IMG/VR virus record: IMGVR_UViG_3300025646_006412
Span: 1 to 28,789 of that record
Strand: one strand, 5' to 3'
DNA from: a virus
DNA: 28,789 nucleotides
Shown: piece by piece, positions 3,230 through 26,863 of the stretch
Position numbering within the stretch: position 1 is the first letter of the stretch
Layout of the letters: every line of letters starts with the position of its first letter
The notes under the pieces: model-generated
Databases searched by the model: none
Told to the model about the DNA's origin: nothing
Seen by the model: only the letters and a program-made list of their open reading frames with translations
Program-made: the position numbers and the translations under genes

Positions 3230-3230
3230 T

Positions 3231-4334
3231 ATGAAAAGAATTTACTTATCGCCACCGCATATGTCAGGTTCGGAACTTGAGTATATAAAAGAGGCATTTG
3301 AACAAAATTGGATCGCACCTATAGGTCCAGCATTAACTAAGTTTGAACAATCTGTTGCTGATTATGTTGGATCAAAATATGCAGTCGCGGTATCATCAGG
3401 TACTGCAGGTATACATTTAGCATTAAGAGCATTAGGAATAGGTGAAGGCGACAACGTTATCTGTTCTTCATTAACTTTTGCAGGTACGGTAAATCCAATT
3501 AAGTATCTTGGTGCTAACCCGGTGTATGTAGACTCTGATCCAATATATTGGAACATTAATCCACTCCTTCTAGAAGAGGCTATACTTAAATTATCCGAAA
3601 AACCAAAGGCTATTATTCCTGTGCATATATTTGGTGTTCCTTGCCAAATGGATGCAATTAAAAAAATCGCAGATGCCTATGATATTCCAATTATTGAAGA
3701 TGCTGCTGAAAGTTTAGGATCTCAGTTTAATGGAAAGCATACTGGTACATTTGGCAAGATTGGAGTTTATTCATTTAATGGTAATAAACTTCTAACTACG
3801 TCAGGTGGAGGTATGGTTGTAACTGATGATAAAGAAATAGCAGATCAAATTAAATTTTTATCAACCCAGGCAAAGGATCCTATGCCATATTATTGGCATA
3901 CGCAAATCGGATATAATTACAGAATGAGTAATGTGCTTGCTGCTATAGGTGTCGGTCAAATGGAAACTATTGAAGATAAGATAAAAAGAACCAGGGAAAT
4001 TCGCCAAAGATATGAAGAAGAGCTAAGTGAATACTTTATGTCATTTCAAAACGAAAGACCAACTGATAGATCTAATATGTGGTTAAGTTGTGCCTTATTA
4101 AAAGAAGATCATAAACCAGCCGATCTTATTGATCATCTTAATGAAGCTAACATTGAAGCTAGAAGAATTTGGTGTCCTATGCACATGCAACCTATATATG
4201 CAGAAGATTCTAAATATATAAATGGAACGGCTGATGCTCTATTTGATCGTGGTGTATGTTTACCATCAGGTTCAAGTATGACAGACGAAGATTTAGATAG
4301 AGTAATATCCGAGATAAAAAAATTCTTTAATTAA
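3231..4334 (+). CDS. UDP-4-amino-sugar aminotransferase (PglE-like, DegT/DnrJ/EryC1/StrS family)
   Basis: This PLP-dependent sugar aminotransferase is 367 residues, normal for the family. Its opening YLSPPHMSGSELEYIKEAF closely resembles PglE of Campylobacter. The PLP-binding region includes SSGTAGIHLALRALG (about 55-69), the conserved Asp157 in IIEDAAESLGS, and the Schiff-base lysine Lys186 within SFNGNK, followed by TTSGGGM. YNYRMSNVLAAIGVGQME and a C-terminal CLPSGSSMT are also PglE-like. It would transfer an amino group from glutamate to C4 of the 4-keto sugar made by the dehydratase two genes upstream, feeding the acetyltransferase just upstream. It starts one base after the previous stop, preceded by an A-rich leader (AAAATAAAATAAT) rather than a Shine-Dalgarno site. 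Other 4-amino-6-deoxy sugars are possible products. Confidence 0.86.
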   Translation: MKRIYLSPPHMSGSELEYIKEAFEQNWIAPIGPALTKFEQSVADYVGSKYAVAVSSGTAGIHLALRALGIGEGDNVICSSLTFAGTVNPIKYLGANPVYVDSDPIYWNINPLLLEEAILKLSEKPKAIIPVHIFGVPCQMDAIKKIADAYDIPIIEDAAESLGSQFNGKHTGTFGKIGVYSFNGNKLLTTSGGGMVVTDDKEIADQIKFLSTQAKDPMPYYWHTQIGYNYRMSNVLAAIGVGQMETIEDKIKRTREIRQRYEEELSEYFMSFQNERPTDRSNMWLSCALLKEDHKPADLIDHLNEANIEARRIWCPMHMQPIYAEDSKYINGTADALFDRGVCLPSGSSMTDEDLDRVISEIKKFFN

Positions 4335-5233
4335 TGGACATAGTATCGTATGAAGATTTTTTATTGTTAGAAAAGCATGTAGGACCTAACTTTGAAATCT
4401 TACTTGAGAAAAATCTAACAAACGAAATTGATAAGAAAATCAAATTTGGTATTGTTATGCCTACTCATAAGATATCGGATGGTGGTGCCCAAGCAGGACG
4501 CCAAAAGTTTATGAATACTCCAGATTTACTTAGAGATTCATTAGGATCAATCAAGGATCAAAAATATGATAATTATGTAGTTTACCTGGTTGGTGATAAG
4601 TACGACGGTGATGAAGAAATCAAAGCTGTAATGGATGAAGTTATTCCTAAGGGAAAGCTTAAGTACCATAATCTATCAACGCCAGGTGAAAGAAATAAAG
4701 GTTTTACAAAACAACAATTTAGATATACCGCAGGATGTGGTGCTATGAATAAAGGCCTTCAGATGGCTAAGAACGATGGGTGTGATTACATCGTAAGAAT
4801 AGACCATGATGATAAGTGGAGCCCAGATCATTTAGAGCTCTTGGCAAAAGCATACACACAATATCCTGAATTAGCATATGTATTTACTCGTAGTCGTAAA
4901 AAGGTGGATGCAACTAATTCTTCAAAAAAGTTTATGTATCAACCTAGAGAAGAAAGACATACCACTACAATCGAGCCAAACAACCTAGGGTATACTCATG
5001 GCGATGTAAGTCATTCAGCGGTTTCATGGAGACCTAGTATGTGTGGTGATTTAAGATATCGTGATGCTGACGCCCAATCTAAATCGGAGCCTAAAATACC
5101 AATGACCAAAACTAATCCTGCTGATGTTGATATGTTTAATCGTATGATGAAAGCAATTAAAGATAAGGGTCATAAGTATATGTACATTCCAAGACTAACA
5201 AGTTTCTATAGAAACAGAAAAGGTAAATTCTAA
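4334..5233 (+). CDS. Glycosyltransferase, GT2-like (GT-A fold)
   Basis: The core starts near residue 37 (IKFGIVMPTHK), the first strand of a GT-A nucleotide-sugar domain. It continues with VVYLVGDKYDGDEEI, the stretch ERNKGF, and the metal-binding acidic motif IVRIDHDDKWSPDHLELL, with DHDD at 157-160. A C-terminal segment DVDMFNRMMKAI...YIPRLTSFYRNRKGKF resembles the end of GT2 domains. It is 299 residues with no membrane segment, so it is probably soluble. The ATG overlaps the previous stop (TAATG), making it the last gene of the first sugar operon and a natural candidate to use the sugar nucleotide made upstream. Acceptor and donor cannot be inferred; DNA, virion protein and envelope glycan all remain possible. 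Confidence 0.8.
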   Translation: MDIVSYEDFLLLEKHVGPNFEILLEKNLTNEIDKKIKFGIVMPTHKISDGGAQAGRQKFMNTPDLLRDSLGSIKDQKYDNYVVYLVGDKYDGDEEIKAVMDEVIPKGKLKYHNLSTPGERNKGFTKQQFRYTAGCGAMNKGLQMAKNDGCDYIVRIDHDDKWSPDHLELLAKAYTQYPELAYVFTRSRKKVDATNSSKKFMYQPREERHTTTIEPNNLGYTHGDVSHSAVSWRPSMCGDLRYRDADAQSKSEPKIPMTKTNPADVDMFNRMMKAIKDKGHKYMYIPRLTSFYRNRKGKF

Positions 5234-5237
5234 AGAA

Positions 5238-5246
5238 TATATAATA
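5238..5246 (+). promoter_or_regulatory. Putative late promoter box TATATAATA
   Basis: TATATAATA lies 30 nt before the ATG of the histone-like gene, just after the stop of the GT2 gene. Nearly the same box occurs at matching distance before four other genes in the window. It resembles the T4 late promoter core TATAAATA, which is read by the gp55-gp33-gp45 system, and this window encodes gp55-like and gp45-like proteins. The assignment is an inference from recurrence and spacing. Confidence 0.5.
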
Positions 5247-5267
5247 AAACAATCAAAAATAAACATT

Positions 5268-5444
5268 ATGGAAAAATTTGAAGAAATCAAAGCGTTAATC
5301 GCAGCAGTTGAAGAAGATGTAGAAAAATTCTACGCTAAAGGAAACAAGGCAGCTGCCGTAAGAATTCGTAAATCTATGCAAGATGTTAAGAACCTTGCTC
5401 AAGAATTAAGAATTCACGTACAGGATACTAAAAACAATATGTAA
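5268..5444 (+). CDS. Histone H1-like (Hc1-family) small DNA-binding protein
   Basis: This 58-residue gene begins MEKFEEIKALIAAVEEDVEKF and continues through AKGNKAAAVRIRKSMQDVKN to a tail ending QDTKNNM. The layout is an acidic amphipathic helix, a KGNKAAxxRxRK basic turn and a second helix. This pattern is that of the short histone-H1-like (Hc1) proteins found throughout Bacteroidetes, which bind DNA non-specifically. It is the best host clue in the window. The gene stands alone: a promoter-like TATATAATA box precedes it and tandem hairpins follow it. In a phage it could coat or compact DNA, adjust host nucleoid structure or accompany packaging. No divergent base composition is obvious; a host-derived gene is likely given the family distribution. 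Confidence 0.8.
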   Translation: MEKFEEIKALIAAVEEDVEKFYAKGNKAAAVRIRKSMQDVKNLAQELRIHVQDTKNNM

Positions 5445-5462
5445 TCTATTATTAACTGCACC

Positions 5463-5484
5463 CCTATTACTGTTTAGTGATAGG
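5463..5484 (+). terminator. Hairpin upstream of the histone-gene terminator
   Basis: CCTATTAC (5463-5470) can pair with GTGATAGG (5477-5484) around a six-base loop, eight pairs including one G-U. It has no T tract of its own and sits directly before the stronger terminator hairpin, so it may stabilise the 3' end or act as a small regulatory structure. Confidence 0.4.
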
Positions 5485-5486
5485 TT

Positions 5487-5516
5487 AAAGGACCACCTAA
5501 AAGTGGTCCTTTTTTG
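5487..5516 (+). terminator. Rho-independent terminator after the histone-like gene
   Basis: AAAGGACCAC (5487-5496) pairs with GTGGTCCTTT (5503-5512) around the loop CTAAAA, and the stem runs into a T tract ending at 5515. This is a strong intrinsic terminator. It separates the small histone-like gene from the second sugar operon, which then has its own promoter-like box at 5559. Confidence 0.85.
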
Positions 5517-5558
5517 TTGCTTAAAGTCCTATTTAGTTGAAACCTTTTTTAAATCCTC

Positions 5559-5567
5559 TATATAATA
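5559..5567 (+). promoter_or_regulatory. Putative late promoter box TATATAATA (second sugar operon)
   Basis: TATATAATA, followed by ATAAA, lies 27 nt before the ATG of the HAD gene and about 45 nt after the terminator at 5487-5516. A new promoter is needed here because of that terminator. The 13-base string TATATAATAATAA recurs exactly before the gp55-like gene at 26472. Confidence 0.5.
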
Positions 5568-5585
5568 ATAAATCACTTAGATTAT

Positions 5586-6140
5586 ATGGAGAAATGCTTA
5601 ATTATAGATTTTGACGATACTTTAGTAGATACTATTGATACTCATGCAGATTCTTGGAAGCATGCATTGGAGCGAGTACTAAATACTGATGTACCTATTG
5701 AAACGGTCATGGCTGATATTAATTATGGTATGGATGTTTTACTTAAGAAGTATCAACTAACCAAGGAAGAATCTAAATTAGCCCAAAAATATAAAAAGGA
5801 AATCTTTGAAAAGAACATACATAAAACAAAGGTAAATAAATTACTTTTGTACATTATTGAAAATGATCTTTTTGAAAACTGTATTATTGCATCAAACTCA
5901 TCTAGAGAAAACCTTGACAAAATTATGGCATATCATGGTATTGATCAAAATCTTTTTTGGGGTATCTTTACCAGAGATGATGTAAAGAATAAAAAACCAC
6001 ATCCTGAAATGGGTGAAATGATATTTAGACACTTAAGAGCTTCATACCAAAAAGAAGACTATCTAATGGTAGGTGATTCTGAAGTAGATAAAATGTTTGC
6101 TCGTAAACTTGGAATTAAATGCATACTAGTAAAATTTTAG
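5586..6140 (+). CDS. HAD-family phosphatase
   Basis: All four haloacid dehalogenase motifs are visible: motif I IIDFDDTLVDT with nucleophile Asp8 and Asp10; motif II IASNSSRE (Ser103 or nearby); the motif III lysine in KNKKPHPEM (about 135-142); and motif IV GDSEVDKMFA (163-172). The cap inserted after motif I is helical, like phosphoglycolate phosphatase and beta-phosphoglucomutase relatives. Length is 184 residues. It opens the second sugar operon, overlapping the next gene by 22 bases. With the kinase and nucleotidyltransferase that follow, it probably dephosphorylates a sugar phosphate during synthesis of an activated sugar. It could serve as the KDO-8-phosphate phosphatase missing from the first operon, but no residue decides this. 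Confidence 0.82.
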   Translation: MEKCLIIDFDDTLVDTIDTHADSWKHALERVLNTDVPIETVMADINYGMDVLLKKYQLTKEESKLAQKYKKEIFEKNIHKTKVNKLLLYIIENDLFENCIIASNSSRENLDKIMAYHGIDQNLFWGIFTRDDVKNKKPHPEMGEMIFRHLRASYQKEDYLMVGDSEVDKMFARKLGIKCILVKF

Positions 6141-6865
6141 TAGGAAACAGTGGGGATAAAGTTTATCTTCACGATGATAAAGTCATTAAGGAAGCAGGTG
6201 TATATCCTGAAAAGTTTAAACAACAAATGGATTGGTTGGTAAATTGCCATCATCCTAATTTTATTGATGTTAAACCTATTTCGGAAACTTCATTTGAAAT
6301 GAAAAGGTACCCAACGTGGTATGATCAAATTTGTAATCAACCTTTGGTTAAATCCATTTCTCAGTTGGATGATCTTATTCATATTGTAAATTCATTTGAA
6401 GGTCATGGTAAAGATATAGATACCAGAGCTTATCTTGATAAGTTAGAAAGCCGTACTGGTTATAAGTATGAAGGTAATCTGGATGGTGCATCCAAGTGGG
6501 GTTTTGTTCATGGTGATCTAACCGTAAGTAATATCCTATATGATAAAGATTTTATCTTTATTGATCCTAGAGGTACTGAAGAACAAGACTATTACGATTT
6601 TGGTAAGCTTATGCAATCCTTTGTAATGGAATATGAAGCCCATATATACAATAACCGCAATACTAAATATTCAAAGTTTTGTAAGGAAGCCCAGAATATA
6701 ATGTATGAATGGTACGATGAATATTTATTAAAGTTTTATCTTGCTGTTCATTTATTAGGTGCTGTACCATTCTTTGAATTAAATGAGAGATATGAATTGG
6801 CAGGTATGTTCCTTAAAAAAGGGCATGAATTATTTGATGAATTAGAAATTAAATACACAAAATGA
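6119..6865 (+). CDS. APH/choline-kinase-like phosphotransferase
   Basis: This protein has the catalytic loop of the aminoglycoside phosphotransferase/choline kinase superfamily: HGDLTVSNIL at 131-140 (Asp133 base, Asn138 metal ligand) and FIDPRG at 147-152 (Asp149). The N-lobe has GDKVYLHDDKVIKEA with a candidate ATP-binding lysine. It likely phosphorylates a sugar, amino-alcohol or similar small molecule with ATP. ATG 6119 lies 22 bases inside the preceding HAD gene, and the gene ends in an ATGA overlap with the following nucleotidyltransferase. A kinase next to a nucleotidyltransferase recalls LicA-LicC (choline kinase and cytidylyltransferase) and sugar 1-kinase/nucleotidyltransferase pairs. 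Which of these applies is not visible. Confidence 0.75.
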   Translation: MHTSKILVGNSGDKVYLHDDKVIKEAGVYPEKFKQQMDWLVNCHHPNFIDVKPISETSFEMKRYPTWYDQICNQPLVKSISQLDDLIHIVNSFEGHGKDIDTRAYLDKLESRTGYKYEGNLDGASKWGFVHGDLTVSNILYDKDFIFIDPRGTEEQDYYDFGKLMQSFVMEYEAHIYNNRNTKYSKFCKEAQNIMYEWYDEYLLKFYLAVHLLGAVPFFELNERYELAGMFLKKGHELFDELEIKYTK

Positions 6866-7569
6866 ATAGAGTAAGAAAGGCAATTATTTTGGCCGCAGGC
6901 AAATCTACAAGATACGGATCAAATAAACTTATCGATCCTATCGTAGGTAAATCTACAGTACAGTACTGCATTGAGTTCTGTATTGAAAATGGAATTGAGG
7001 ATGCTTATGTAACCATTAGTAAATCTGACTTCTTTTTTAAGAATTTTAATACTAAGCTATCCCATCCTATTATTGAATCTTTATCACAGTATAAAGATAG
7101 AATTAACATCTATTATGAATTTCAAAGGGATGATGAGTATGGTCCAGGTGCTGCTATTAAAGCATGGAAGGATGCTTTTTACGAGCCTTTCCTATGTTTA
7201 TTTGGTGATAATTTCTATAGAGGTAATATTGGTTTAGAATATCATAATCCTAACATATCAGTTGTTACTTATAAAGATTATGAAACTCGTGCAAGGAATC
7301 TTCAATTAGCAACTATCCTAGATAATGTAGTTGTAGAAAAACCTCATGGTGTTGTACAAGGTAGATACTTTTGTGGTTATATGATTTTTGCAAAAGAAGC
7401 CTTTGATAACTTAAGTAGTATCAGGTTATCAAATCGTAATGAATATGAAATTACTCATCTTATTAATTCAATGAAAGATTTGGAATTTCAAGAGCTAGGA
7501 ATTAATTGGTATGACCTAACATATGAACAAGATAAAAAAGTAATTGAACAAATAATCCAAAGTAAATAA
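6862..7569 (+). CDS. Sugar-phosphate nucleotidyltransferase-like protein
   Basis: The protein opens with KAIILAAGKSTRYGSNK (residues 6-22), a variant of the G-x-G-x-R pyrophosphorylase motif that binds the nucleotide triphosphate, followed by YYEFQRDDEYGPGAAIKAWKDAF and the metal-binding FGDNFY. At 235 residues it matches short NTP_transferase proteins that make NDP-sugars or CDP-alcohols. It likely activates the product of the kinase gene just upstream, with which it overlaps (ATGA). It lacks a left-handed helix domain, so it is not a bifunctional GlmU type. The substrate is unknown. Confidence 0.78.
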   Translation: MNRVRKAIILAAGKSTRYGSNKLIDPIVGKSTVQYCIEFCIENGIEDAYVTISKSDFFFKNFNTKLSHPIIESLSQYKDRINIYYEFQRDDEYGPGAAIKAWKDAFYEPFLCLFGDNFYRGNIGLEYHNPNISVVTYKDYETRARNLQLATILDNVVVEKPHGVVQGRYFCGYMIFAKEAFDNLSSIRLSNRNEYEITHLINSMKDLEFQELGINWYDLTYEQDKKVIEQIIQSK

Positions 7570-7570
7570 T

Positions 7571-8833
7571 ATGAAAGACAACGTAAAGAAAGTAGGTTTC
7601 TTTAAACTTGGAAAGGCAATTAAGTTTAATGAAAACAGTTGGAATGCCATCGGTGGTGACTGTGAGCCTAAACAGTTGATCTGCTCTATTGCCAAAAGAA
7701 ACCCTAATGTTGAATATTGGCTTCTTAGTCCAAATGATTTAGGAAAGGTTAGAGCTAAACAAAAACCAAAGGTAAATTCCTTGTTTGGTGATCCTACTCC
7801 ACAGGAAAGCGAAATTCCAAATAATATTAAGGAATTTCATTCAACTATGAATGATCGTAAATCAACAGACGAAGCGGTTGAAACTATCAAAGGTTTAGGT
7901 TTAGATTTTATCTTTTTCTATACAGGACCAACTAGTACTGTTAATATTGAAAACTTTATTAATAAAGTAGATGGAAGTGGTACTGTTAAAACGTTGGACT
8001 TCTTTAAGTATTATGCAGCCCCAATTATTAAGGCAATGAATGAAATGCCTAAGACTCCTATTGTAGGATTATTGGTAGATAACCGTTATGTGCTTTCATG
8101 TAAAGATTACACGGCGCATAATAGACCAACCTATTATTTGGCTCAAAATAACTTTGAATTAGATGAAGAGTATTTCTGCAACCCTCCTACTCGGGAAACT
8201 GCAAAAATTCATTCTACTTTTGAATACTCAGGTATTGAAACAGTATTCCTTTTGGATAAGAAGCGTTATGATATAGATGAACTCTTTGCTATGAAAAAGA
8301 CCAATTCATTTATGATGCTCCAAAATCAAGGAAAAGGTTCAGGTGGAATGGATCGCTGGGATCCTGTTAGAGATTACATTGTAGAGAATGGAATACAAAC
8401 CGATATTTATGGTAAGTGGGATGATGAAATTAAAGAAAAATATCCTGATTGGTTTAAAGGGGAAATGAGAATTGAATCAATGACTAATGAACTTCTTGCT
8501 ACCAAGTATACCTTCTGCGTTCCTATTAAAGAGGGAATGGTCACTTCTAAGTATGCAGAAATGTTACACTATGGTATTATACCTTTCTTACATCCATCTT
8601 ATGATACTGAATTTAATGTATTCCCTGAAGGACATTTTATCAGATGTAAATCACCAGAAGATCTTAAAAAGAAAATTGAATTCTTAAATGATAACCCAGA
8701 ACATTATAAGAAGCTATTCTATAATCTCCAAGAAAAGTATCTTAAAGATTCTTATTATACTGGAGAACATGTAGATAATAAAATATGGGAAGCATATAAT
8801 CACGTAACACAAAATCAAACAGTAAATGTATAA
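7571..8833 (+). CDS. Putative GT-B-like glycosyltransferase
   Basis: This 420-residue protein is not firmly recognised. Its C-terminal third looks like the donor half of a GT-B glycosyltransferase: ELLATKYTFCVPIKEG, then SKYAEMLHYGIIPFLHPSYD (an E-x-L-x-x-G-x-I-P-F segment that in GT-B proteins contacts the nucleotide sugar), then a helical tail beginning SPEDLKKKIEFLNDNPEHY. The N-terminal half contains alternating strands and helices, such as KVGFFKLG and LDFIFFYTGP. No membrane segment is evident. It starts one base after the nucleotidyltransferase gene, so it may use the activated sugar made there. The general layout recalls phage DNA glucosyltransferases as well as ordinary envelope glycosyltransferases, and sequence reading cannot separate these. 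Confidence 0.6.
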   Translation: MKDNVKKVGFFKLGKAIKFNENSWNAIGGDCEPKQLICSIAKRNPNVEYWLLSPNDLGKVRAKQKPKVNSLFGDPTPQESEIPNNIKEFHSTMNDRKSTDEAVETIKGLGLDFIFFYTGPTSTVNIENFINKVDGSGTVKTLDFFKYYAAPIIKAMNEMPKTPIVGLLVDNRYVLSCKDYTAHNRPTYYLAQNNFELDEEYFCNPPTRETAKIHSTFEYSGIETVFLLDKKRYDIDELFAMKKTNSFMMLQNQGKGSGGMDRWDPVRDYIVENGIQTDIYGKWDDEIKEKYPDWFKGEMRIESMTNELLATKYTFCVPIKEGMVTSKYAEMLHYGIIPFLHPSYDTEFNVFPEGHFIRCKSPEDLKKKIEFLNDNPEHYKKLFYNLQEKYLKDSYYTGEHVDNKIWEAYNHVTQNQTVNV

Positions 8834-9848
8834 TCCAGAAACTAAAATCCTAATAACCGGAGGAGCCGGGTTCGTAGGTACTAACTTTATTAATGACCTT
8901 CTTAATCGTGGTCATAACCCAGACTGCATCGCAGTAGTAGATAATCTTTCTCATGGTACTTATCTGCCACAAGTACATGATAAGATTAAGCATTTTTATA
9001 AGGAAGATATTCGTAATGAATATGTAAAGAAGATCATTGCTGAATTTGGACCTGATTACATCTATCACTTTGCAGGTCTTGTTTCAATTTATGACTGTCA
9101 CGCTGATCCTTATGAAGCTGTTGATAATAACATTTTAGGAAGTATTAATATTCTTGATGCAGCTGCCGAAAATAATGTTAAGAGAGTTATCTTTAGCGAA
9201 ACTTCAGCGGTATATGAAAACTGTGAAATGCCTGATGGTGGATTTAATGAAACACAATCAGATCCTACAACGGTTTATTCTACAACTAAGGCATGTTTGG
9301 CTCTTATTGCAGAATCATACTCTCGTACTAAAGGAGTTAATTATACTGCATTACGTTACTTTAATGTAGCCGGGCCTTTACAAGATTATGACAGAACGAT
9401 TCCGCCGGTATTTGCCGGATTCATTATTCGTTTAATGGCTGGTAAAAATCCTATCATCTTTGGGGATCCAATGAAAGCCCGTGACTATATTGATGTGGAT
9501 GATGTAAATGCATTCCACATGTTATGTATGGAAAGTGAAAAAACGGCTAACCAAACATTTAACTTAGGCACTGGTAAAATGACTACCTTAATGGATCTTA
9601 AAGATATTATTGGAGATGCTATGGGAATTCAGAATGTTCAGTATGATCAATATGGTGCAATTGCAGGTGAGGCTCTTAATATTCGGGCTGATATTTCTAA
9701 GGCTAAATCTATAGGTTGGGAACCTAAGAAATCAATGGTTGATACAATTAAGAAAACTATTACATATCTTGAAGAAGAGGTAAGCCAAGGTAACATTGAT
9801 CCTCTTACGTTCATGGAAGATTTAGAAATAGAAAAGGTTAAGATATGA
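8826..9848 (+). CDS. NAD-dependent nucleotide-sugar epimerase/dehydratase (extended SDR, GalE-like)
   Basis: The Rossmann motif GGAGFVG is at residues 12-18, an acidic residue ends the second strand (VVDNLSHG), and the catalytic residues are the SETSAVY region (about 124-130) and Tyr151-x3-Lys155 in YSTTK. ALRYFNVAGP and NLGTGKMTTLMDL are further extended-SDR features. At 340 residues it is a full-length nucleotide-sugar epimerase or 4,6-dehydratase family member. It overlaps the preceding gene by eight bases and the following methyltransferase by four (ATGA), placing it in the second sugar operon. UDP-glucose/UDP-GlcNAc 4-epimerase activity is a reasonable first guess; specificity is not determined. 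Confidence 0.82.
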   Translation: MYNPETKILITGGAGFVGTNFINDLLNRGHNPDCIAVVDNLSHGTYLPQVHDKIKHFYKEDIRNEYVKKIIAEFGPDYIYHFAGLVSIYDCHADPYEAVDNNILGSINILDAAAENNVKRVIFSETSAVYENCEMPDGGFNETQSDPTTVYSTTKACLALIAESYSRTKGVNYTALRYFNVAGPLQDYDRTIPPVFAGFIIRLMAGKNPIIFGDPMKARDYIDVDDVNAFHMLCMESEKTANQTFNLGTGKMTTLMDLKDIIGDAMGIQNVQYDQYGAIAGEALNIRADISKAKSIGWEPKKSMVDTIKKTITYLEEEVSQGNIDPLTFMEDLEIEKVKI

Positions 9849-10470: not shown

Positions 10471-11733
10471 ATGAGTAAAGAATTAAAATGGGGAACAATT
10501 ATTCCGCTGATTGGTGGAAGTGCAATTGGCTGTAGTAAGTCTACAGGAAACGAACCATCATTCCATTTAAGTTATGATGCTTTTGCTGCTAATGAAAGCC
10601 ACATTGAAAGATATTGGCCTGATGTACCAATGTACAGATTGGACCATGAAGACTTAGAAATACCTGGAGAAACTTTTGAAGGTGTTGATTATGTAAATTC
10701 AGTATGTCCTTGTGCTGGGCTATCTTTATTAAACTCTGCTAGCGGTTCCGCCGCATCTAGAGGATCTGATGCAGTCCAAAATAAATGGATGTATGAATCA
10801 TCTGAATATATTTTGGAGCACGTAAAACCTAAGGTTCTCTGGGGGGAAAATGCACCTGGTCTTTTTACTAAGATGGGTGAGGGTGTTGTACAAAGACTTA
10901 GAGAAATAGCAGAGAAGCATGGGTATAGCTTTTCTTTAATTAAAACTAATACTGAACTACATGGTATTCCTCAGAGAAGAATGCGTACATTCTATTTCTT
11001 TTGGAACACGCCAACAGTTCCTATGTTAGATTGGAAATTTAGAGAAAAGAAAAAGCTTATTGATTATCTTAATGAAATTCCTAAGGATGCTACTCAACAG
11101 GATATGTTTATGGTACCTGGTAAAGTAACAGATCATTTTAGACCTTACGAATTTGTTTTAGAAAAAGAAGGTTTAACTCATGCCGAGTTTTCTGCCAAGT
11201 TCAAGAAAGGCACTATTGCACAGTATCTTGACAGTAATGAATTGCTTGATGAATGCATTGAATGGCTTAGAGAAAGATATCCAAAGGAAGGGTTTTCTAA
11301 TAAAAAATCAACAAAGACGTTTATTGATATGTTAGAACATCAAAAGAATAAAGTAAGCCAAGGTCTTGGTTATTGGGATGCCTCACCACACTTCTTTCAT
11401 GATTCATTTTCTGCTCTTATCGGTAGAAATATGTTTAATGGAGTTCATCCTGTAGAAAATCGCTATCTTAATGTAAGAGAAATGCTACACCTAATGGGAT
11501 TGCCTTTAGACTTTGAAATTGAATCATCTCGCCAAGTTAATCATATTGCACAGAATGTACCCGTTACAACTGCAATGGATATGGCAAATGAAGTAAAGAA
11601 GTTTTGTGAAGGGAATGCAAAAATGACAAACTATACATTCTTAAAACAAGATAATACTAATCATAAAATTATTGCAGCCGAAGAAATCGGAGCATCACCA
11701 AAAAAGAAGTATAAAGTAAAAAGCGTGATATGA
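10471..11733 (+). CDS. DNA (cytosine-5) methyltransferase-like protein
   Basis: The C5-methyltransferase motifs appear in order. Motif I is TIIPLIGGSAIG (about 9-20), motif II is LSYDAFAANESHIERYWP, and motif IV is SVCPCAGLS with the catalytic cysteine at 81. Motif VI is the ENA of LWGENAPGLF (126-128), and motif VIII is GIPQRRMRTF (QRR at 168-170). A C-terminal RYLNVREMLHLMGLPLDF with HIAQNVPVTTAMDMANEV corresponds to motifs IX-X. The catalytic set looks intact at 420 residues. Such enzymes methylate cytosine C5 in DNA, often to escape restriction. No cognate restriction enzyme is present. Motif IV has CPCAG instead of PPCQG, and motif X has QNVPV instead of GNAVPP, so it is a divergent member. 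It sits between sugar genes and a glycosyltransferase. Confidence 0.78.
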   Translation: MSKELKWGTIIPLIGGSAIGCSKSTGNEPSFHLSYDAFAANESHIERYWPDVPMYRLDHEDLEIPGETFEGVDYVNSVCPCAGLSLLNSASGSAASRGSDAVQNKWMYESSEYILEHVKPKVLWGENAPGLFTKMGEGVVQRLREIAEKHGYSFSLIKTNTELHGIPQRRMRTFYFFWNTPTVPMLDWKFREKKKLIDYLNEIPKDATQQDMFMVPGKVTDHFRPYEFVLEKEGLTHAEFSAKFKKGTIAQYLDSNELLDECIEWLRERYPKEGFSNKKSTKTFIDMLEHQKNKVSQGLGYWDASPHFFHDSFSALIGRNMFNGVHPVENRYLNVREMLHLMGLPLDFEIESSRQVNHIAQNVPVTTAMDMANEVKKFCEGNAKMTNYTFLKQDNTNHKIIAAEEIGASPKKKYKVKSVI

Positions 11734-14300: not shown

Positions 14301-15416
14301 ATGACCGAAGAACTAAAAAAAGTAAAAGAAGAGGCAAGTAAGTATTACAACTATGAACAGGCTGTTAAGCTTATGCTTAACTCTATTTATGGTGCATTTG
14401 GTAATCCTTACTTCTATTTCTTTAATGTTGATATTGCAGAAACTATTACCTTGCAAGGTAAGGATGCAATTCTCTATACTGAGATTTTAATTAACAAATA
14501 CTTTAAAGAGTTTTGGCATAAAGATCTAGATGCTCATAATCAGTTAGGCATACAGGTAACAGGTAAAATTGAAAACCCTGTAGGAATTTATATTGATACA
14601 GATTCAATTTATGTTAAGTTTGATGAGGTCATTAAAAAGTCTACTTGGCAAGGCAGCGAAAAAGAGTTTATACTTAAGATATATAAAGTAAGATTAGCAG
14701 ATTATATTGAAAAGATCTTACAAAAATATGCAGATGATAATAATGCAGAAAACTTTTTAAGCTTTGAATTGGAGAGTATTGCAAAGAATGCAATATGGCT
14801 CGCCAAGAAAAAGTATATGCAGAATATTGTTTGGAAAGATCCTAATATTCATTATGATGAACTATCTAAAATTAGTGCAAAAGGATTTGAAATTATTCAA
14901 TCGTCAACTCCAGTTTTTGCCAGAGAAAAACTGAAAGATCTATTAACATATATCTTTTCGGTTGATCAATTAGATATGAAAGAATTTGCTAACTTACTTA
15001 AAGATATTAAAAGACAATTCAGATTGGCTAACACAGATCAAATAAGTTTTTCTAAAAAGGTTAACAATTACCAAAAGTACATTGTTAATGATTATGATCA
15101 ATTTGAGATTGGTTTAAAATGCCCTATTGGAGTAAGGTCTGCCGGTTATCATAATTATCTTTTAAACAATTCAGGCCTTAAGGGTAAATATCAACCACTA
15201 GGTAACGGAGAAAAATTAAAAATGTATTTCTCTGTAGATAAATCATGTGATGTATTCGCATATGCTCCTGGTGAATATCCTTATGAATTTGCACCTGATG
15301 TAGATTACGACAGACAATTTGAAAAAACAATATTAGATCCAATTAACCGAGTCGTAACGGCAATGGGGTTTAAGGCATTTAATCGTAACTTAATTTATAC
15401 TACGAGCCTTTTTTAA
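14301..15416 (+). CDS. 43B: Family B DNA polymerase, C-terminal half (split T4 gp43)
   Basis: The 371 residues correspond to the fingers-to-thumb part of T4/RB69 gp43. Motif B is AVKLMLNSIYGAFGN (about 21-35) with Lys23 and Tyr30-Gly31. Motif C is GIYIDTDSIYV with the catalytic DTDS at 99-102, and the KKKY-type motif is LAKKKYM (167-173). A thumb-like domain and a C-terminal TTSLF, resembling gp43 clamp-binding tails, complete it. The exonuclease domain, motif A (DxxSLYP) and the first palm part are missing. The upstream frame is closed by a stop at 14295-14297, and ATG 14301 begins inside the fingers helix pair. This is therefore a separately encoded subunit, not a truncation at the window edge; the partner must be elsewhere in the genome. 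Confidence 0.88.
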   Translation: MTEELKKVKEEASKYYNYEQAVKLMLNSIYGAFGNPYFYFFNVDIAETITLQGKDAILYTEILINKYFKEFWHKDLDAHNQLGIQVTGKIENPVGIYIDTDSIYVKFDEVIKKSTWQGSEKEFILKIYKVRLADYIEKILQKYADDNNAENFLSFELESIAKNAIWLAKKKYMQNIVWKDPNIHYDELSKISAKGFEIIQSSTPVFAREKLKDLLTYIFSVDQLDMKEFANLLKDIKRQFRLANTDQISFSKKVNNYQKYIVNDYDQFEIGLKCPIGVRSAGYHNYLLNNSGLKGKYQPLGNGEKLKMYFSVDKSCDVFAYAPGEYPYEFAPDVDYDRQFEKTILDPINRVVTAMGFKAFNRNLIYTTSLF

Positions 15417-15428
15417 AATAAAAATGAT

Positions 15429-16604
15429 ATGAACGACAAAAGAACATTTAGAATCCATGTATTAGGTTTACCTCATACAAAAACAACAAAGGACTTTACT
15501 GCTTGCGCTTACACGCAAAAAGTATGGAAGTTTTGTAAAATGATGAAAGGCCGTGGCCATTACATTATGCACTATGGTCATGAAGATTCCAATCCTGCTG
15601 CTGATGAAAATGTTACAGTAATTACAAATGAGGTTTGGGAAAAGGTCTATGGATCTCATGATTATAAGACTCATTTGTTTAAGTATGATACACAAGATGA
15701 AGCATACCAAACATTTTATAAAAATGCAATTGAAGAAATTGGAAAAAGAAAACAGAAAGGTGATATCATTCTTCCATTCTGGGGTTCAGGTGTAAGACCT
15801 ATCTGCGATGCTCACGGTGACCTTTGTATCATTGAGCCTGGTATTGGTTATGCAGGTGGTATGTGGTCAGTTTTTAAAATCTTTGAATCCTATGCAATAT
15901 ACCATGCATATTGTGGATTAGGTAATGTTAGTATGTGTAATCAGAGCTGGTTTGATCAGGTGATTCCTAACTATTTTGACCTAGATGAATTTGAATACAG
16001 CCATGAAAAAGAAGACTACTTCTTATATGTAGGTAGAGTATATGATGGTAAAGGTGTTAATATTGCAATTCAAGCAACTCAAGCCATTGGAGCTAAATTA
16101 AAAATAGCAGGACAAATTGGAGATGAATTTTATGAAAAGAATCCATGGCCTGATCATGTTGAATTTGTAGGTTATGTAGGCTCTGAAGAAAGAAAGGCAT
16201 TAATGAAAGGTGCTATCGCATCGTTCTTACCTTCTATGTATGTTGAACCTTTTGGCGGAGTTCAAATTGAAAATCTATTATGTGGTACTCCAACCATTAC
16301 AACTGATTGGGGTGCCTTTGCCGAAAATAATATACAAGGTGTTACTGGTTATCGTTGCCGTACTTTTGAAGACTTCGTTAAAGCCGCTCATGACTGTCGC
16401 GCTGGAAAAATTAGACCAATCGACTGTAGAAATCATGGAGAAAACTTTTCATTAGAGGCAATTGCACCAAAATATGAAAAATACTTTGCACAAGCTGCAA
16501 ACGTTACCCAAGCAAAAGGTTTCTATACAATCGAGGATCCTACTTTATATTCCGATGAATGGTTAAACACTCATAAGGATTTTGTATTTACTAAAAAAAA
16601 CTAA
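15429..16604 (+). CDS. GT4-like (GT-B) glycosyltransferase, possibly first half of a frameshift fusion
   Basis: A complete GT-B glycosyltransferase is visible: an acceptor half with IHVLGLPHT and a helix-rich middle, then the donor half starting DYFLYVGRVYDGKGVNIAIQA (about 196-216). The nucleotide-sugar motif of GT4 is at Glu273-x7-Glu281 in VEPFGGVQIENLLCGTP, followed by TDWGAFAENN. Length is 391 residues. It ends with Thr-Lys-Lys-Asn and TAA, where the codons form the slippery heptamer A AAA AAC (16595-16601). A -1 shift there enters the next open frame and would make a 689-residue two-domain protein. The start ATG follows an A-rich leader with TAAAATAAAAATGAT. The mature domain is full-length without the fusion. 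Confidence 0.82.
   Translation: MNDKRTFRIHVLGLPHTKTTKDFTACAYTQKVWKFCKMMKGRGHYIMHYGHEDSNPAADENVTVITNEVWEKVYGSHDYKTHLFKYDTQDEAYQTFYKNAIEEIGKRKQKGDIILPFWGSGVRPICDAHGDLCIIEPGIGYAGGMWSVFKIFESYAIYHAYCGLGNVSMCNQSWFDQVIPNYFDLDEFEYSHEKEDYFLYVGRVYDGKGVNIAIQATQAIGAKLKIAGQIGDEFYEKNPWPDHVEFVGYVGSEERKALMKGAIASFLPSMYVEPFGGVQIENLLCGTPTITTDWGAFAENNIQGVTGYRCRTFEDFVKAAHDCRAGKIRPIDCRNHGENFSLEAIAPKYEKYFAQAANVTQAKGFYTIEDPTLYSDEWLNTHKDFVFTKKN
16595..16601 (+). other. -1 frameshift slippery heptamer A AAA AAC
   Basis: The zero-frame codons ACT AAA AAA AAC TAA end the GT4-like gene. The in-phase heptamer A AAA AAC is a classical X XXY YYZ -1 slip site, immediately followed by the stop. After a -1 shift the frame is open for another 298 codons to 17497. 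A weak six-pair stem (CAACCT 16617-16622 with AGGTTG 16633-16638) lies downstream, further away than usual. The eight-A run also allows transcriptional slippage. Confidence 0.6.
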
Positions 16605-17497
16605 AGCCTAGAATAGCAACCTATAATGAATCAGGTTGGGCAATAGGTAGAATTCATACTGGGTTAGATCAATTTTTAAATGATGAATACGAATTTGTTC
16701 ATTATGATTGGTCTAACCCAGATCATGTTAAAGAGCTATGGACTGATGGAGGTTGGAAAAACTTTGATATCTTATTAGGAAATGGGACTTTGTCTAACAT
16801 AGGAGGTTTACCACCAGAAGCATATGAAAAAATGGTATGTGCTATTTGGTCAATGCCACGGTTAAGTAATCACTTCAGAGAAACTATAATGCCAGATGAA
16901 AGAATATCATGGGCATGTACAGGTATTGATTTAGAACAATATCTAAGAGAAGAATACCAAATATCAGCATCACATGTGGTTGCAGGTGTTAGTCCTAACG
17001 ATTTTTATCCTACTAGAAAAATTACTAAAATTAAGAACGTTGGTTTAAATGGCATCCCATTTGTTAATTCAGGCTGGGATGAAATTAAAAGACCAGAAAT
17101 GCTAGTTGACATTGCTAATGGCATTGGGGGAGAGCCAATATTTATACATGGAAAGGATCTCTCTGAAGCAAATACTATGTATAATGATATTGATATGTAT
17201 ATTTGTACTAGTACAAATGACAGAGGACCTTATGGTATAGCCGAAGCTGCATTCTGTAAAATACCGGTTATTTCAACTAACACCGGGTTTGCATTACAAT
17301 TTAAAAGTATAAAAACATTTAATACAGCAGAAGAAGCAATTGAAATTATCAATGAATTAAATTCATCGGAAGAAAAATTAGAAAAGTATATTGACGAAGT
17401 ATATGAAGAAATAACACAGGCTCTGAATTGGGAACATGTAGTTAACACCTATTGGAAACCCATATTCGAGAAAAAATTGGCATTAAACAAACCTTAA
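16595..17497 (+). CDS. Second glycosyltransferase (GT-B/GT4-like) domain, open frame without a canonical start at its true N-terminus
   Basis: The frame is open from 16595 (in-frame stop at 16592-16594). Before the first usable start codon, TTG 16790, it already encodes protein-like sequence: PRIATYNESGWAIGRIHTGL, then FVHYDWSNPD and FDILLGNGT, a typical first Rossmann strand region of a GT-B enzyme. The C-terminal half has the GT4 donor motif in DRGPYGIAEAAFCKIPVISTNTGF. There is no ATG, GTG or TTG upstream of 16790, and starting at 16790 would delete about 65 residues of the fold. Translation therefore probably arises by a -1 shift from the preceding glycosyltransferase. A non-canonical start (for example ATA 16613) or a homopolymer sequencing error are the alternatives. 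UvsX follows after 27 nt. Confidence 0.75.
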   Translation, partial: KKLKPRIATYNESGWAIGRIHTGLDQFLNDEYEFVHYDWSNPDHVKELWTDGGWKNFDILLGNGTLSNIGGLPPEAYEKMVCAIWSMPRLSNHFRETIMPDERISWACTGIDLEQYLREEYQISASHVVAGVSPNDFYPTRKITKIKNVGLNGIPFVNSGWDEIKRPEMLVDIANGIGGEPIFIHGKDLSEANTMYNDIDMYICTSTNDRGPYGIAEAAFCKIPVISTNTGFALQFKSIKTFNTAEEAIEIINELNSSEEKLEKYIDEVYEEITQALNWEHVVNTYWKPIFEKKLALNKP

Positions 17498-17524: not shown

Positions 17525-18724
17525 ATGGCAAAAGAGTTTTCATTCGCAGACTTAAACAAAGAAATGGCAAAACACTCCACGTACGGAGATACCTTGGACA
17601 AGTCTACAGTATCAGAGATTGATCATTTTATCCCAACGGGTAATTTTAATCTTAATGCATGTTTAACAGGATCTTTTAAAGGTGGTTATCCAAATAACCG
17701 AGCAGTTGCATTAGCCGGGCCATCCGGTACAGGAAAAACTTTCCTTCTTCTTAATTCAATTAAACAGGCACAAGATATGGGATATAGTATTGTATTCTAT
17801 GATTCCGAAAATGCCGTTGATAGAGAACTGGTAGAAAAGTTTGGAATTGATTCAACTCGGTTTAGATATGAACCTTGTAATACTGTTCAAGAATTTCGTA
17901 GCTCGGTAACTGCATTAACTGATCTTTTAATTGATCAAAAAAGTAAAGGGGTTGAATTACCTAAGATATTAATCGCCCTTGATTCTGCCGGTAACCTTGC
18001 AACACAAAAAGAAATTGATGATGCTAAAAGTGGATCTGATAAAGCAGATATGACTCGCGCTAAATTGTTAAAATCAACATTCCGTATTCTTATGACTAAG
18101 TTAGGTATCTGTAAGATTCCTTTCTTATTTACAAATCATACATACCAAACACAAGACCTATTCTCAAAACAGGTTGGTGGAGGTGGTACCGGTCCTGAAT
18201 ATGCTGCGTCTATTATTCTTTTCTTAGGTAAAGCAAAACTAAAAGAAGGAACGGAACAGACAGGAATCGTTGTAACTGCAAAACCAAATAAAAACCGATT
18301 TGCTAAACCTCTTCCAATTAAATTCCATATTTCTTTTAACAAAGGTATGAATCCTTATATTGGTTTAGAGGAATATATTAGCTGGGATAATTGTGGTATT
18401 GAAAGAGGAAGGTTTATTACAGAGTCTGCATATGAAAAGTTAACCGATGCAGGAAAGGCTGAATGCCGCCAACATATCTATAACAGAGATGGTAATGATG
18501 TTACTGTTTATTTCCAACCTGCTGCAACTGCACGTAAGCTCTGTGTAGCCCATCTTAATGATACTGTTGAGCTTAATGAATTATTTACACCTAAGGTAAT
18601 TACACAAGAAGTTTTAGATAGATTAGAACCTATTGTAAATGAAAAATTCAAATATGGTACCGATGATTTGGATTTAGGGGATCTATCTGAAATGCTTGAA
18701 GCCGATGTTAGCGAAAACGCTTAA
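17525..18724 (+). CDS. uvsX: UvsX recombinase (RecA/Rad51-like)
   Basis: This 399-residue protein (T4 UvsX is about 390) catalyses strand pairing and exchange in recombination-dependent replication and repair. The Walker A motif is GPSGTGKT at 65-72, followed by the helix FLLLNSIKQAQ; the catalytic glutamate region is YDSENAVDRELV; Walker B is ILIALDSAGNL. The FTNHTYQ strand and a glycine-rich DNA-binding loop KQVGGGGTGPEYAAS are present, as in T4-type UvsX. The C-terminal acidic tail (DDLDLGDLSEMLEADVSE) also fits. The ATG is preceded by CATATAAAAATAAAATC, an A-rich leader that may include a promoter-like box. The next gene overlaps its end. Confidence 0.93.
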   Translation: MAKEFSFADLNKEMAKHSTYGDTLDKSTVSEIDHFIPTGNFNLNACLTGSFKGGYPNNRAVALAGPSGTGKTFLLLNSIKQAQDMGYSIVFYDSENAVDRELVEKFGIDSTRFRYEPCNTVQEFRSSVTALTDLLIDQKSKGVELPKILIALDSAGNLATQKEIDDAKSGSDKADMTRAKLLKSTFRILMTKLGICKIPFLFTNHTYQTQDLFSKQVGGGGTGPEYAASIILFLGKAKLKEGTEQTGIVVTAKPNKNRFAKPLPIKFHISFNKGMNPYIGLEEYISWDNCGIERGRFITESAYEKLTDAGKAECRQHIYNRDGNDVTVYFQPAATARKLCVAHLNDTVELNELFTPKVITQEVLDRLEPIVNEKFKYGTDDLDLGDLSEMLEADVSENA

Positions 18725-24586: not shown

Positions 24587-26422
24587 ATGAATAGTTCAGT
24601 CAATGAAGGACAAACTCAGGTTTATATGGATGGCGGTATTAATCCACAATACGGAGTTAATACTAATGCGCCTTATCTAAATAACCCTCCTAAGCAACTT
24701 ATAGACATTATTAATGAATTCTATAGAAGTGGTAAATCAGATTCTCAGGTTTTAGCTATTTTAGTTGGAATGGGAACACCTCAACAATTAGCAATGTCTG
24801 GAATTAATGCTTATAAGGCTGGTATGAATATGTATACAACAGAAAATAACAATAAACAAAAAAATCATAACAAAATGAACTTTACACTTACGGAATTGTA
24901 TGAAAATGTTATGAAGAGTATCAATGGCCTAAAAGAAATGGAATCTGATAATTCAAGAGTTTCTTATACTGCCAAAAATGCTCTCGGCATTTTAGAAAAT
25001 TCATTAGGACAGTTTCCTATGAGATTTAAATCTGAGGATGTATCCGTTGTCAGCGAAGAAATTGAAAACAGTGTTAATCCAACACTTAAGTTTAAGATTG
25101 CTAAAAACTTACACAATGCATTATCTTCAGCAGCATGGCTTAATCCTGTTAAAGAATTAAGATCATACATCGCTAACACTTATGATAATGGTAAGTGGTC
25201 ATATAAAATTGCTGAATCTATCGAAAGAAATTCTGCACAAAGAGGAAAGCTTTATGAAGGTCTTACTTCAGAATTGACTTCTCTTCTTTCAGAATCAGAA
25301 GATGGTTTAAAAACTAAATTAGGAATTGTTGCATCTAAGCACCCATGGTCAAATGATTGCAAAAATATTCTTAATGAAATGGCAGAAGCTGAACATAAGG
25401 CAACTGCAAATAACTCTGGAAAGATTACATCAATTCTTTCTCCTGTATTGGAAAACGAAAATGGTCTTACTTTCCACCTTCACGGAAAGAATTACAATTA
25501 TAATGGTAAGGAAATCACCGAAACTAAAGTTGAGGATTCCAGATTCTTTGATGTTCTTGAAGGATTAAAGTTATTTAAGCACACTGGAGATTCTTTGGTA
25601 ACATTCAGTGAAAACGGAAAAACTTTAGAATTTAATCTTACTGAAGGAACTCTTAAGCTAGGAGACATTGATTTAACTAACTCAAGCGTTATTGAATTAA
25701 AAGAATCTTTATTAGGAACTGGCTTCTTTGGTTACAGAGAGCAATGGAAAGTTGATCAAGTTTGCAGATTCTTTGAATCTGTTGATATGTTAGCAGAAAT
25801 GGATAACTTTACAAATATTCAATCAACTGAGTTTTTGAATCTTTTCTTAACAATGATTGCTGTTGAAGAAGGTATCTGGGTTAATAAGGTTAACGGTGGA
25901 ATGCAACTTAATGAAATGAATTTTATTCCTTCTGCTACTGAAGCCGTTAATGTTATTAAAGAATTCATTAATTATGATGCTTCTTCAATCTTATCCGAAA
26001 GATTAATTGCCGAAGGAAATGAAAAGGCGGCTAACGATAAGAAAAGAGCTGATATCAATGATAAGATTTCTTTTTTAGAAGAAAAGAAAACTAAGATTGC
26101 TGAAACTATGAAAAAGGTTGGAGAAACCGAAGAACTTAAAGAAGCTATGAATTTATTGGATTCTGAATTATCTAAGTTTGAGAAAGAACTCCAAGAAACC
26201 TTTTCTGTCGTTGAAAAAAAAACTAAAGATCAATATCTAGACGATGGATATGTTGAAGCCGAGGTTATTAAAACATCAGGCGGTCTTAGAAAAGGCGATG
26301 AAGTTTTGGTAAATGCAGAAGAATATACTTCTCTTGGTGATGATGATTTGTTAAATTCAATTAATCCTAAGACAGGAAAAACAACAATCATCAAAAAAGA
26401 AATTGTTAAGGTACAATTATAA
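24587..26422 (+). CDS. Large phage protein of unknown function, probable virion or head-assembly component
   Basis: This 611-residue protein is not recognised. The N-terminal 80 residues contain a small helical domain (PKQLIDIINEFYRSGKSDSQ, then VLAILVGMGTPQQLAMSGINAY). A polar spacer rich in Asn and Lys (about 85-96) follows, then a long mainly helical body. A charged coiled coil occupies about 484-549 (with FLEEKKTKIAETMKKVG), and the last 60 residues look like a small beta module (KGDEVLVNAEEYTSLGD). No enzymatic motif, signal peptide or membrane segment is visible. A promoter-like box precedes it and a strong terminator follows, so it forms its own unit in the late region. A second ATG at 24875 has an A-rich leader and could give a 515-residue product. 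Confidence 0.85.
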   Translation: MNSSVNEGQTQVYMDGGINPQYGVNTNAPYLNNPPKQLIDIINEFYRSGKSDSQVLAILVGMGTPQQLAMSGINAYKAGMNMYTTENNNKQKNHNKMNFTLTELYENVMKSINGLKEMESDNSRVSYTAKNALGILENSLGQFPMRFKSEDVSVVSEEIENSVNPTLKFKIAKNLHNALSSAAWLNPVKELRSYIANTYDNGKWSYKIAESIERNSAQRGKLYEGLTSELTSLLSESEDGLKTKLGIVASKHPWSNDCKNILNEMAEAEHKATANNSGKITSILSPVLENENGLTFHLHGKNYNYNGKEITETKVEDSRFFDVLEGLKLFKHTGDSLVTFSENGKTLEFNLTEGTLKLGDIDLTNSSVIELKESLLGTGFFGYREQWKVDQVCRFFESVDMLAEMDNFTNIQSTEFLNLFLTMIAVEEGIWVNKVNGGMQLNEMNFIPSATEAVNVIKEFINYDASSILSERLIAEGNEKAANDKKRADINDKISFLEEKKTKIAETMKKVGETEELKEAMNLLDSELSKFEKELQETFSVVEKKTKDQYLDDGYVEAEVIKTSGGLRKGDEVLVNAEEYTSLGDDDLLNSINPKTGKTTIIKKEIVKVQL

Positions 26423-26440
26423 CCTCTCCACTATACTAAG

Positions 26441-26470
26441 AGCCGACAGAATAAACTGTCGGCTTTTTTT
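26441..26470 (+). terminator. Rho-independent terminator after the 611-residue gene
   Basis: AGCCGACAG (26441-26449) pairs with CTGTCGGCT (26456-26464) around the loop AATAAA and is followed by a run of seven T ending at 26470. It is a strong intrinsic terminator. A new promoter-like box begins two bases later. Confidence 0.9.
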
Positions 26471-26471
26471 G

Positions 26472-26480
26472 TATATAATA
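26472..26480 (+). promoter_or_regulatory. Putative late promoter box TATATAATA before the sigma-like gene
   Basis: TATATAATA, extended to TATATAATAATAAAA, starts two bases after the terminator T tract and 26 nt before the ATG of the gp55-like gene. A promoter is required at this place because of the terminator. The sequence matches the box at 5559. Confidence 0.55.
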
Positions 26481-26497
26481 ATAAAATAATGTAGATT

Positions 26498-26863
26498 ATG
26501 CCAAGGAAAAGAAATTATCTTAACAATAGAGACCTATTAGAAGAAATCATAAAATCCCAAGAACTGGATGAATTAACCCCAAAGGCATTAGAGTTCTTAA
26601 TGCTCTTAGCCGATAAATGTTCAAGAAAACTAACCTACCGAGATCCTCAGGATAGAGAAGACTGTATCGCATATGCTTATATGGATCTTTATAGATACTG
26701 GAGAAACTTTAATCCAGAAAAAAGTACAAATGCATTTGCATATTTTACTGAAATAGCAAAAAGAGGATTTGCAAAAGGTTGGAATAAATTACACCCAAAG
26801 AAATATGCAGGAACCGTATCAATAGATGGGGGAACTGATAGTGAAGGAATTTATACAATCTAG
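26498..26863 (+). CDS. 55: Late-transcription sigma factor, T4 gp55-like (short form)
   Basis: The start RKRNYLNNRDLLEEIIKSQ parallels gp55 'YNYVNNKELLQAI'. The body ALEFLMLLADKCSRKLTYRD...DREDCIAYAYMDLYRYWRNFNPEKSTNAFAYFTEIAKRGFAKGWNKL parallels the gp55 segment corresponding to sigma region 2, including the 'K.NPHAYITQACFNAFV' helix that contacts the promoter -10-like element. gp55 directs host RNA polymerase to TATAAATA-type late promoters. At 121 residues it is shorter than T4 gp55 (185) and lacks the C-terminal part with the clamp-binding tail. The ending (VSIDGGTDSEGIYTI) overlaps the next reading frame. A TATATAATA box 26 nt before the ATG suggests it is itself transcribed from such a promoter. 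Confidence 0.72.
   Translation: MPRKRNYLNNRDLLEEIIKSQELDELTPKALEFLMLLADKCSRKLTYRDPQDREDCIAYAYMDLYRYWRNFNPEKSTNAFAYFTEIAKRGFAKGWNKLHPKKYAGTVSIDGGTDSEGIYTI

Follow-up and report, generated by a model that had tools for sequence, protein, structure and literature searches.

A putative programmed −1 recoding site at the A-run between two glycosyltransferase genes of a T4-like environmental phage and its relatives

Introduction

Does the A-run between two adjacent glycosyltransferase genes of a T4-like environmental phage serve to fuse their products by a −1 shift, or is the second gene, which lacks a start codon of its own, expressed independently or merely misread by sequencing? The window analyzed here, meaning the whole stretch of DNA under study, is a 28,789-base IMG/VR record (IMGVR_UViG_3300025646_006412) consisting of a single contig. 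A preliminary description, made from the sequence alone, had favored a programmed −1 fusion over an independent gene and had named a homopolymer error as the main competing explanation. We assessed these alternatives by a combination of comparative genomics, structure prediction of the second protein and RNA folding analysis.

Results

Anatomy of the GT1-GT2 junction

The two glycosyltransferase genes, termed GT1 and GT2, lie between a polymerase gene and a recombinase gene, as follows.

14301..15416, + strand: C-terminal DNA polymerase (gp43-like) gene, upstream neighbor of GT1 (phrog_1918, E=4.5e-66)
15429..16604, + strand: GT1, GT4-like GT-B glycosyltransferase, 391 aa, zero-frame product, stop TAA (PF00534, E=2.6e-18; phrog_3408, E=1.3e-164)
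16593..16600, + strand: A8 run
16595..16601, + strand: in-phase slippery heptamer A_AAA_AAC, abutting the GT1 stop (identified from the sequence; an in-phase heptamer is also present in other lineages)
16601..17497, + strand: GT2, in the −1 frame, 298 codons plus stop, predicted GT-B fold, without its own start codon (frame, AlphaFold2, Foldseek and a weak match to Pfam Glycos_transf_1)
17525..18724, + strand: UvsX-like recombinase, downstream neighbor of GT2 (phrog_97, E=8.6e-60)

GT1, which has 63 related loci in IMG/VR, ends in ACT AAA AAA AAC TAA, with its last codons at 16593-16595 (AAA), 16596-16598 (AAA), 16599-16601 (AAC) and 16602-16604 (TAA). Sequence, phase and frames thus bear out the original reading that A_AAA_AAC stands in the correct phase for a tandem −1 slip. 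No stop interrupts the −1 frame between 16595 and the one at 17495-17497, the first post-shift codon is CTA (16601-16603), and the predicted products are 391 residues (GT1) and 689 residues (GT1-GT2) long. The earliest ATG, GTG or TTG in the GT2 open frame is a TTG at residue 66, followed by an ATG at residue 80.

The peptide T-K-K-K-L-K-P-R, proposed earlier as the signature of the junction, stands for some mechanisms and falls for another. A tandem slip in the P and A sites should give mostly T-K-K-N-L-K-P-R, because AAC is decoded as Asn before the ribosome slips, whereas T-K-K-K-L-K-P-R is expected if an A is inserted in the mRNA or if the slip precedes the decoding of AAC. The junction peptide of the window phage (TKKN-LKPR versus TKKK-LKPR) would therefore help to separate ribosomal from transcriptional slippage.

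GT2 as a glycosyltransferase

An AlphaFold2 model of GT2, built from an alignment, has a mean pLDDT of 89.9. Its best solved matches in Foldseek are GT4-type GT-B enzymes, including PimA, MshA and BshA (for PimA, 2gej, E 1.6e-9 and TM 0.67), and the Pfam family PF00534 (Glycos_transf_1) is matched at E=2.1e-5, under the curated cut-off. With two Rossmann-like domains in the model and solved GT4 enzymes among its matches, GT2 is predicted to be a GT-B (GT4-like) glycosyltransferase, in agreement with the preliminary assignment of the 298-codon shifted frame. The first strand of the model (beta1, residues 6-11) comes directly past the slip site and the second (beta2) spans residues 33-38. Given that the first start codons are at residues 66 and 80, beta1-alpha1-beta2 of the fold precede any start codon, and a GT2 initiated at either position would, according to the model, lose about the first half of its N-terminal Rossmann domain.

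The first 65 or so residues had been described as protein-like in spite of lacking a canonical start, and codon-position differences agree with this. For residues 5-70, which precede or surround the earliest candidate starts, GT2 sequences differ pairwise 527/333/967 times by codon position, a pattern that indicates that the −1 frame is translated and under purifying selection.

Conservation of the junction across lineages

A search of IMG/VR with GT2 returned 16 loci at 48-68% identity, to which a profile search added L091 (42%), L092/L093 (41%), L094 (40%) and a fragment, L096. After removal of near-copies, 13 distinct lineages including the window remained, with GT2 about 41-67% identical to that of the window. 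In 13/13 of them, an A8-A10 run stands at the end of GT1 or just before it, and GT2 follows in the −1 frame. The run is A8 in the window, A10 in L015 and A9 in the other 11 lineages; the heptamer outside the window is an in-phase A_AAA_AAA in all 12, and L091 has in addition A_AAA_AAC, with the ending AAA AAA AAC TAA. None of the 13 lineages has an ATG, GTG or TTG ahead of the first beta-strand of GT2 (the GTG of L010 falls within that strand). The run begins at codon position 1, 2 or 3 of GT1 depending on the lineage, while the frame relation is constantly −1. Runs of at least eight A are rare elsewhere (five in ~109 kb of the window and the 12 homologous loci), yet one lies at the junction in every lineage, which argues against chance.

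This conservation bears on the proposal that the homopolymer was misread or misassembled and conceals an in-frame fusion. The A8 run is indeed a homopolymer, and the window is known from one contig. However, such errors would scatter across frames, whereas the separate contigs of many lineages share one frame relation at run lengths of 8, 9 and 10 and in differing phases, and the GT2 loci of the IMG/VR relatives include no in-frame GT1-GT2 fusion. Identical junctions recur in separately assembled contigs, namely in six IMG/VR contigs (L002-L006 and L017), in L008/L009 and in L011/L014. The agreement of these contigs effectively excludes the error formerly regarded as the main competitor, and for the family as a whole we ruled it out on the basis of the 13 lineages and of L107, a locus of a sister family described below; its probability is negligible.

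Phase variation, in which replication slippage in the A-run would toggle the fusion within a population, was weighed on the same data. Glycosyltransferase genes that contain homopolymer tracts are well-known examples of phase variation. All sampled lineages are nevertheless in the −1 state, with no "on" in-frame variant in any contig, and we hold this explanation to be very improbable.

The homologue alignment that had been suggested as a check thus found the two domains separated by a slip site in 13 lineages and fused in frame in none. GT2 relatives were found neither in bacterial genomes nor among INPHARED phages, and no near-copy of the window junction was retrieved from IMG/VR by pattern searching.

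A sister family with a start codon at the slip-site position

When every locus was scanned with a GT2 profile, GT2 homologues standing on their own turned up immediately after GT1 in other phages. In this sister family (~30% identical), the start codon of GT2 is an ATG that overlaps the GT1 stop as ATGA in L098, L099, L105 and L106; the overlap of the two genes is ATGATTAA in L100-L104, and the ATG of L133 and L136 falls slightly before the end of GT1. The start Met of the stand-alone homologues aligns at the slip-site position, and an ATGA overlap already fixes the −1 relation between the two genes. One member of the sister family, L107, has no ATG there. It reads GTA AAA AAA AAA GAA TTG ATA ACC CTT TAA, with an A10 run, GT2 in −1 and an in-phase slippery heptamer, an arrangement known from a single contig. 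A maximum-likelihood GT2 tree requires two state changes between slip site and ATG, also across bootstraps; the root of this tree is not known, so that any direction of change would have to be inferred. L107 and the two changes on the tree indicate that slip site and start codon substitute for each other.

Homologues with their own ATG had been put forward beforehand as an observation that would tell against a fusion. They occur only in the sister family and not in the clade of the window, and the position of their ATG makes it an alternative state rather than a start codon for the GT2 of the window. The same alignment lends some plausibility to an independent GT2, made by reinitiation at a non-canonical codon beside the GT1 stop as a leftover of the ATG-coupled state, since the ATG of the sister family lies at or near that stop. 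On the other hand, the lineages share no candidate codon: the ATA of the window is GTG in L010, GTA in L015 and L092, CTA in L091 and ATA in the others, and it encodes merely a variable hydrophobic residue of beta1. A non-canonical start was therefore dropped as a candidate. It would also leave the A8-A10 run of 14 lineages unexplained, and we consider an independent GT2 improbable.

In the sister locus L106 (687-3004), two tandem GT1-like copies precede the ATG-started GT2.

Proposed recoding mechanism

With the −1 relation, the A-run and the missing start codon kept in 13 lineages and in L107, the preference for a programmed −1 fusion is upheld. Judged from sequence comparison, the junction is probably a conserved programmed −1 recoding site that gives both GT1 and GT1-GT2, and we put the probability of this reading at about 0.8. 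We propose that most GT1 translation stops at or just after the A-run, which would yield the 391-residue glycosyltransferase, and that a fraction shifts to the −1 frame on the run (on A_AAA_AAC in the window), so that GT2 would be added. The 689-residue product would then carry two GT-B domains with a lysine-rich linker between them. The ribosome may slip with the help of structured RNA downstream, and the joint production of GT1 alone and GT1-GT2 would determine how much glycosyl transfer proceeds in one step and how much in two. Slippage appears to be the sole route to GT2 in the clade of the window, in which case the slip site would do the job that the ATG does in the sister family. What the sequences show is the anatomy of the junction, its conservation, the missing start codons, purifying selection acting on the −1 frame and selected RNA structure downstream; the slippage itself, its site, its frequency and the substrate of the enzymes are inferred.

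RNA structure downstream of the A-run

Two hairpins are predicted past the heptamer in the window, neither of which figured in the preliminary description.

16606..16648, + strand: proximal RNA hairpin, weak, 4 nt after the heptamer (position and pairing partners poorly conserved)
16659..16721, + strand: distal long RNA hairpin, outer arms 16659-16673 and 16707-16721, 58 nt after the A-run (folding z-score; inverted repeat I3; synonymous-codon test)

The 120-nt stretch from 16651 has a folding z-score of −7.9, the lowest of 956 folding windows (the next lowest being −4.9). In a synonymous-codon test the distal hairpin of the window scored z=−3.9, with 0/400 recoded versions as low. L010, a sister lineage, shares this long hairpin and lacks the 4-nt spacing of the proximal one. 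Seven lineages (L003, L007, L008, L011, L012, L013 and L015) instead fold AATTCATAC and GTATGAATT with their flanks into another hairpin at a shifted position. In these nine lineages, which are the closest, no stretch examined is as structured as the one beside the junction (by a small margin in L010), and that one folds better than its synonymous-codon versions (z −2.5 to −7.2, at most 3/400 as low); a stricter within-region permutation agrees in 8/9, the exception being L015. These tests show that the downstream RNA structure is under selection in the nine lineages. Third positions at invariant codons of residues 21-45 likewise vary less (0.22 versus 0.39, p=0.012), in a small sample and over a stretch picked after the hairpin had been seen. 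RNAalifold on the nine lineages together showed little covariation, with two double-sided pairs, because the hairpins of the two lineage groups differ. Folding each group separately gives a better fit, though informative changes are few, with two double-sided pairs in the seven sequences and none in the window/L010 pair.

The long hairpin begins ~38 nt after the A-run in the seven lineages, 58 nt in the window and 71 nt in L010. Frameshift stimulators are usually located 5-9 nt from the slip site (PMC7618472), and this hairpin is thus too far away for a classical stimulator. No such strong structure was found past the A-run in L016, L091, L092 and L094, so it is not required for the GT1/GT2 arrangement. 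It could stimulate frameshifting from afar or together with a bound protein, or shield a rarely translated part of the mRNA. A bolder idea, that the hairpin is a new distal recoding element, rebuilt with different base pairs in the two groups and acting through a bound protein or ribosome queueing to let the phage switch the GT1:GT1-GT2 ratio and the glycan built, is speculative and in our view unlikely.

Ribosomal or transcriptional slippage

If recoding takes place, ribosomal slippage is the somewhat favored form of it, while transcriptional slippage is a substantial but lesser contender. In the latter, the polymerase would add one A (or drop two) on the A8-A10 run and normal translation of the altered mRNA would give the fusion. 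It is a sub-hypothesis of recoding, and its probability overlaps that of the main reading; taken over all explanations we regard it as doubtful. Runs of 9A are of the classical slippage length, and 9A kept among homologues has been proposed as a hallmark (Baranov 2005, PMC1088944). A9 is present in 11/13 lineages although its phase relative to GT1 differs (1, 2 or 3), including the four distant lineages that have no strong structure. For the ribosome speak the in-phase heptamer of every lineage, the single direction, the selection on downstream structure and the run of just A8 in the window, and the last three of these also count against the polymerase. A uniform −1 direction has been taken as a sign of ribosomal over transcriptional shifting, transcriptional cases often going both ways (Antonov 2013, PMC3711429), and downstream RNA that has yet to be made cannot act on the polymerase, although structure there is selected in nine lineages. 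Furthermore, the coding frame 24587-26422 contains another A9 run, and a slip on it would truncate the product.

The host is also relevant to this question. A Shine-Dalgarno-like motif was found upstream of only 2/30 window genes, and the upstream regions are A-rich. Scarce Shine-Dalgarno motifs are a Bacteroidota trait, which suggests a Bacteroidota-type host for the window phage, and frameshift rules from E. coli may consequently not apply. In E. coli, A_AAA_AAC is less shifty than A_AAA_AAG (PMC5009743), and a proven IS case uses A_AAA_AAC with no established stimulator (PMC4066793).

Discussion

Programmed −1 fusion of adjacent ORFs is already well known. IS-element transposases (OrfA-OrfB of IS3, IS1 and others) are made by −1 shifts at A-rich heptamers, and some IS elements use 9A transcriptional slippage (PMC5009743, PMC4066793, PMC1088944). 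Those systems produce the transposase of a mobile element, whereas the present one concerns a pair of phage GT-B glycosyltransferases with a strong hairpin far downstream. The dnaX gene (ribosomal A_AAA_AAG in E. coli, transcriptional A9 in Thermus) shares the A-run and the two products from one gene, but its shift leads to a shorter product, while that at GT1/GT2 would lead to a longer, two-enzyme product. The lambda G/GT tail assembly chaperone and other phage capsid and tail shifts resemble GT1/GT2 in a programmed −1 event near the end of the first ORF that adds a C-terminal extension (PMC5009743); their products serve virion assembly or structure, unlike an enzyme pair. The ATGA-coupled sister pairs (L098-L106) concern the same two genes and, with an ATGA overlap, the same −1 relation, but with separate initiation and unfused products. 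Among open-licence PMC papers on glycosyltransferases and frameshifting or slippage we found no earlier fusion of this kind for glycosyltransferases and none from a phage, which accords with the earlier impression that a slip-made double glycosyltransferase would be new for a phage.

GT1 without GT2 is common, and in Synechococcus phage ACG-2014f it sits amid tail-fiber-like genes. The pair would most likely act on virion or surface glycans, transferring glycosyl groups in two steps. The DNA beta-glucosyltransferase of T4, which is located similarly, near gene 43 and uvsX, keeps DNA a candidate acceptor. DNA glucosylation of the T4 type would call for an enzyme that makes 5hmC; a Tet/JBP search of the contigs of six relatives gave no match, and a control search was equally silent.

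Phage recoding examples in our sources are mostly structural or assembly genes, and recoded glycosyltransferases would extend recoding to surface-decorating enzymes. A start codon and a slip site would be shown to substitute for each other in at least two lineages, and the coexistence of slip-site and ATG-started members, with the hairpin present or absent, would constitute a natural experiment on the origin of a recoding site. Because gene callers split such pairs and shorten the second enzyme by ~65 to 80 residues, the automatic annotation of these phages goes wrong at this point.

Genomic setting of the window

The polymerase gene upstream of GT1 (14301-15416) is a separate gene of 371 aa, and its match to gp43-like profiles is confined to their C-terminal part (phrog_262, 498-841 of 856). 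L016 and L092 have the same split gene ahead of GT1. For the UvsX-like protein, uncultured huge phages and Prevotella Lak phages head the matches listed.

The window phage also carries a sugar-nucleotide cluster at 408-9848. It encodes a DAHP-synthase-I family enzyme, presumably KDO-8-P-synthase-like, a polysaccharide-synthesis dehydratase (Polysacc_synt_2), a PglD-like acetyltransferase, a DegT aminotransferase, an epimerase, and GT2-family and other glycosyltransferases. A C5-cytosine DNA methylase is encoded at 10471-11733 (PF00145, E=1.3e-18).

Rfam and tRNA scans of the whole window gave no match, including in a gap of ~350 bases between two genes (5234-5585) that has no ORF of at least 60 aa and whose RNA is predicted to be fairly strongly structured (z −4.5 at 5431). 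At 26371-26550, around and after the end of the ORF 24587-26422, there is also a cluster of low folding z-scores (−4.3 to −4.9). The second A-run of the window, an A9 (TTGAAAAAAAAACTAAAG) at 26214-26222, lies within this long ORF, and a slip on it in either direction would end translation within a few codons.
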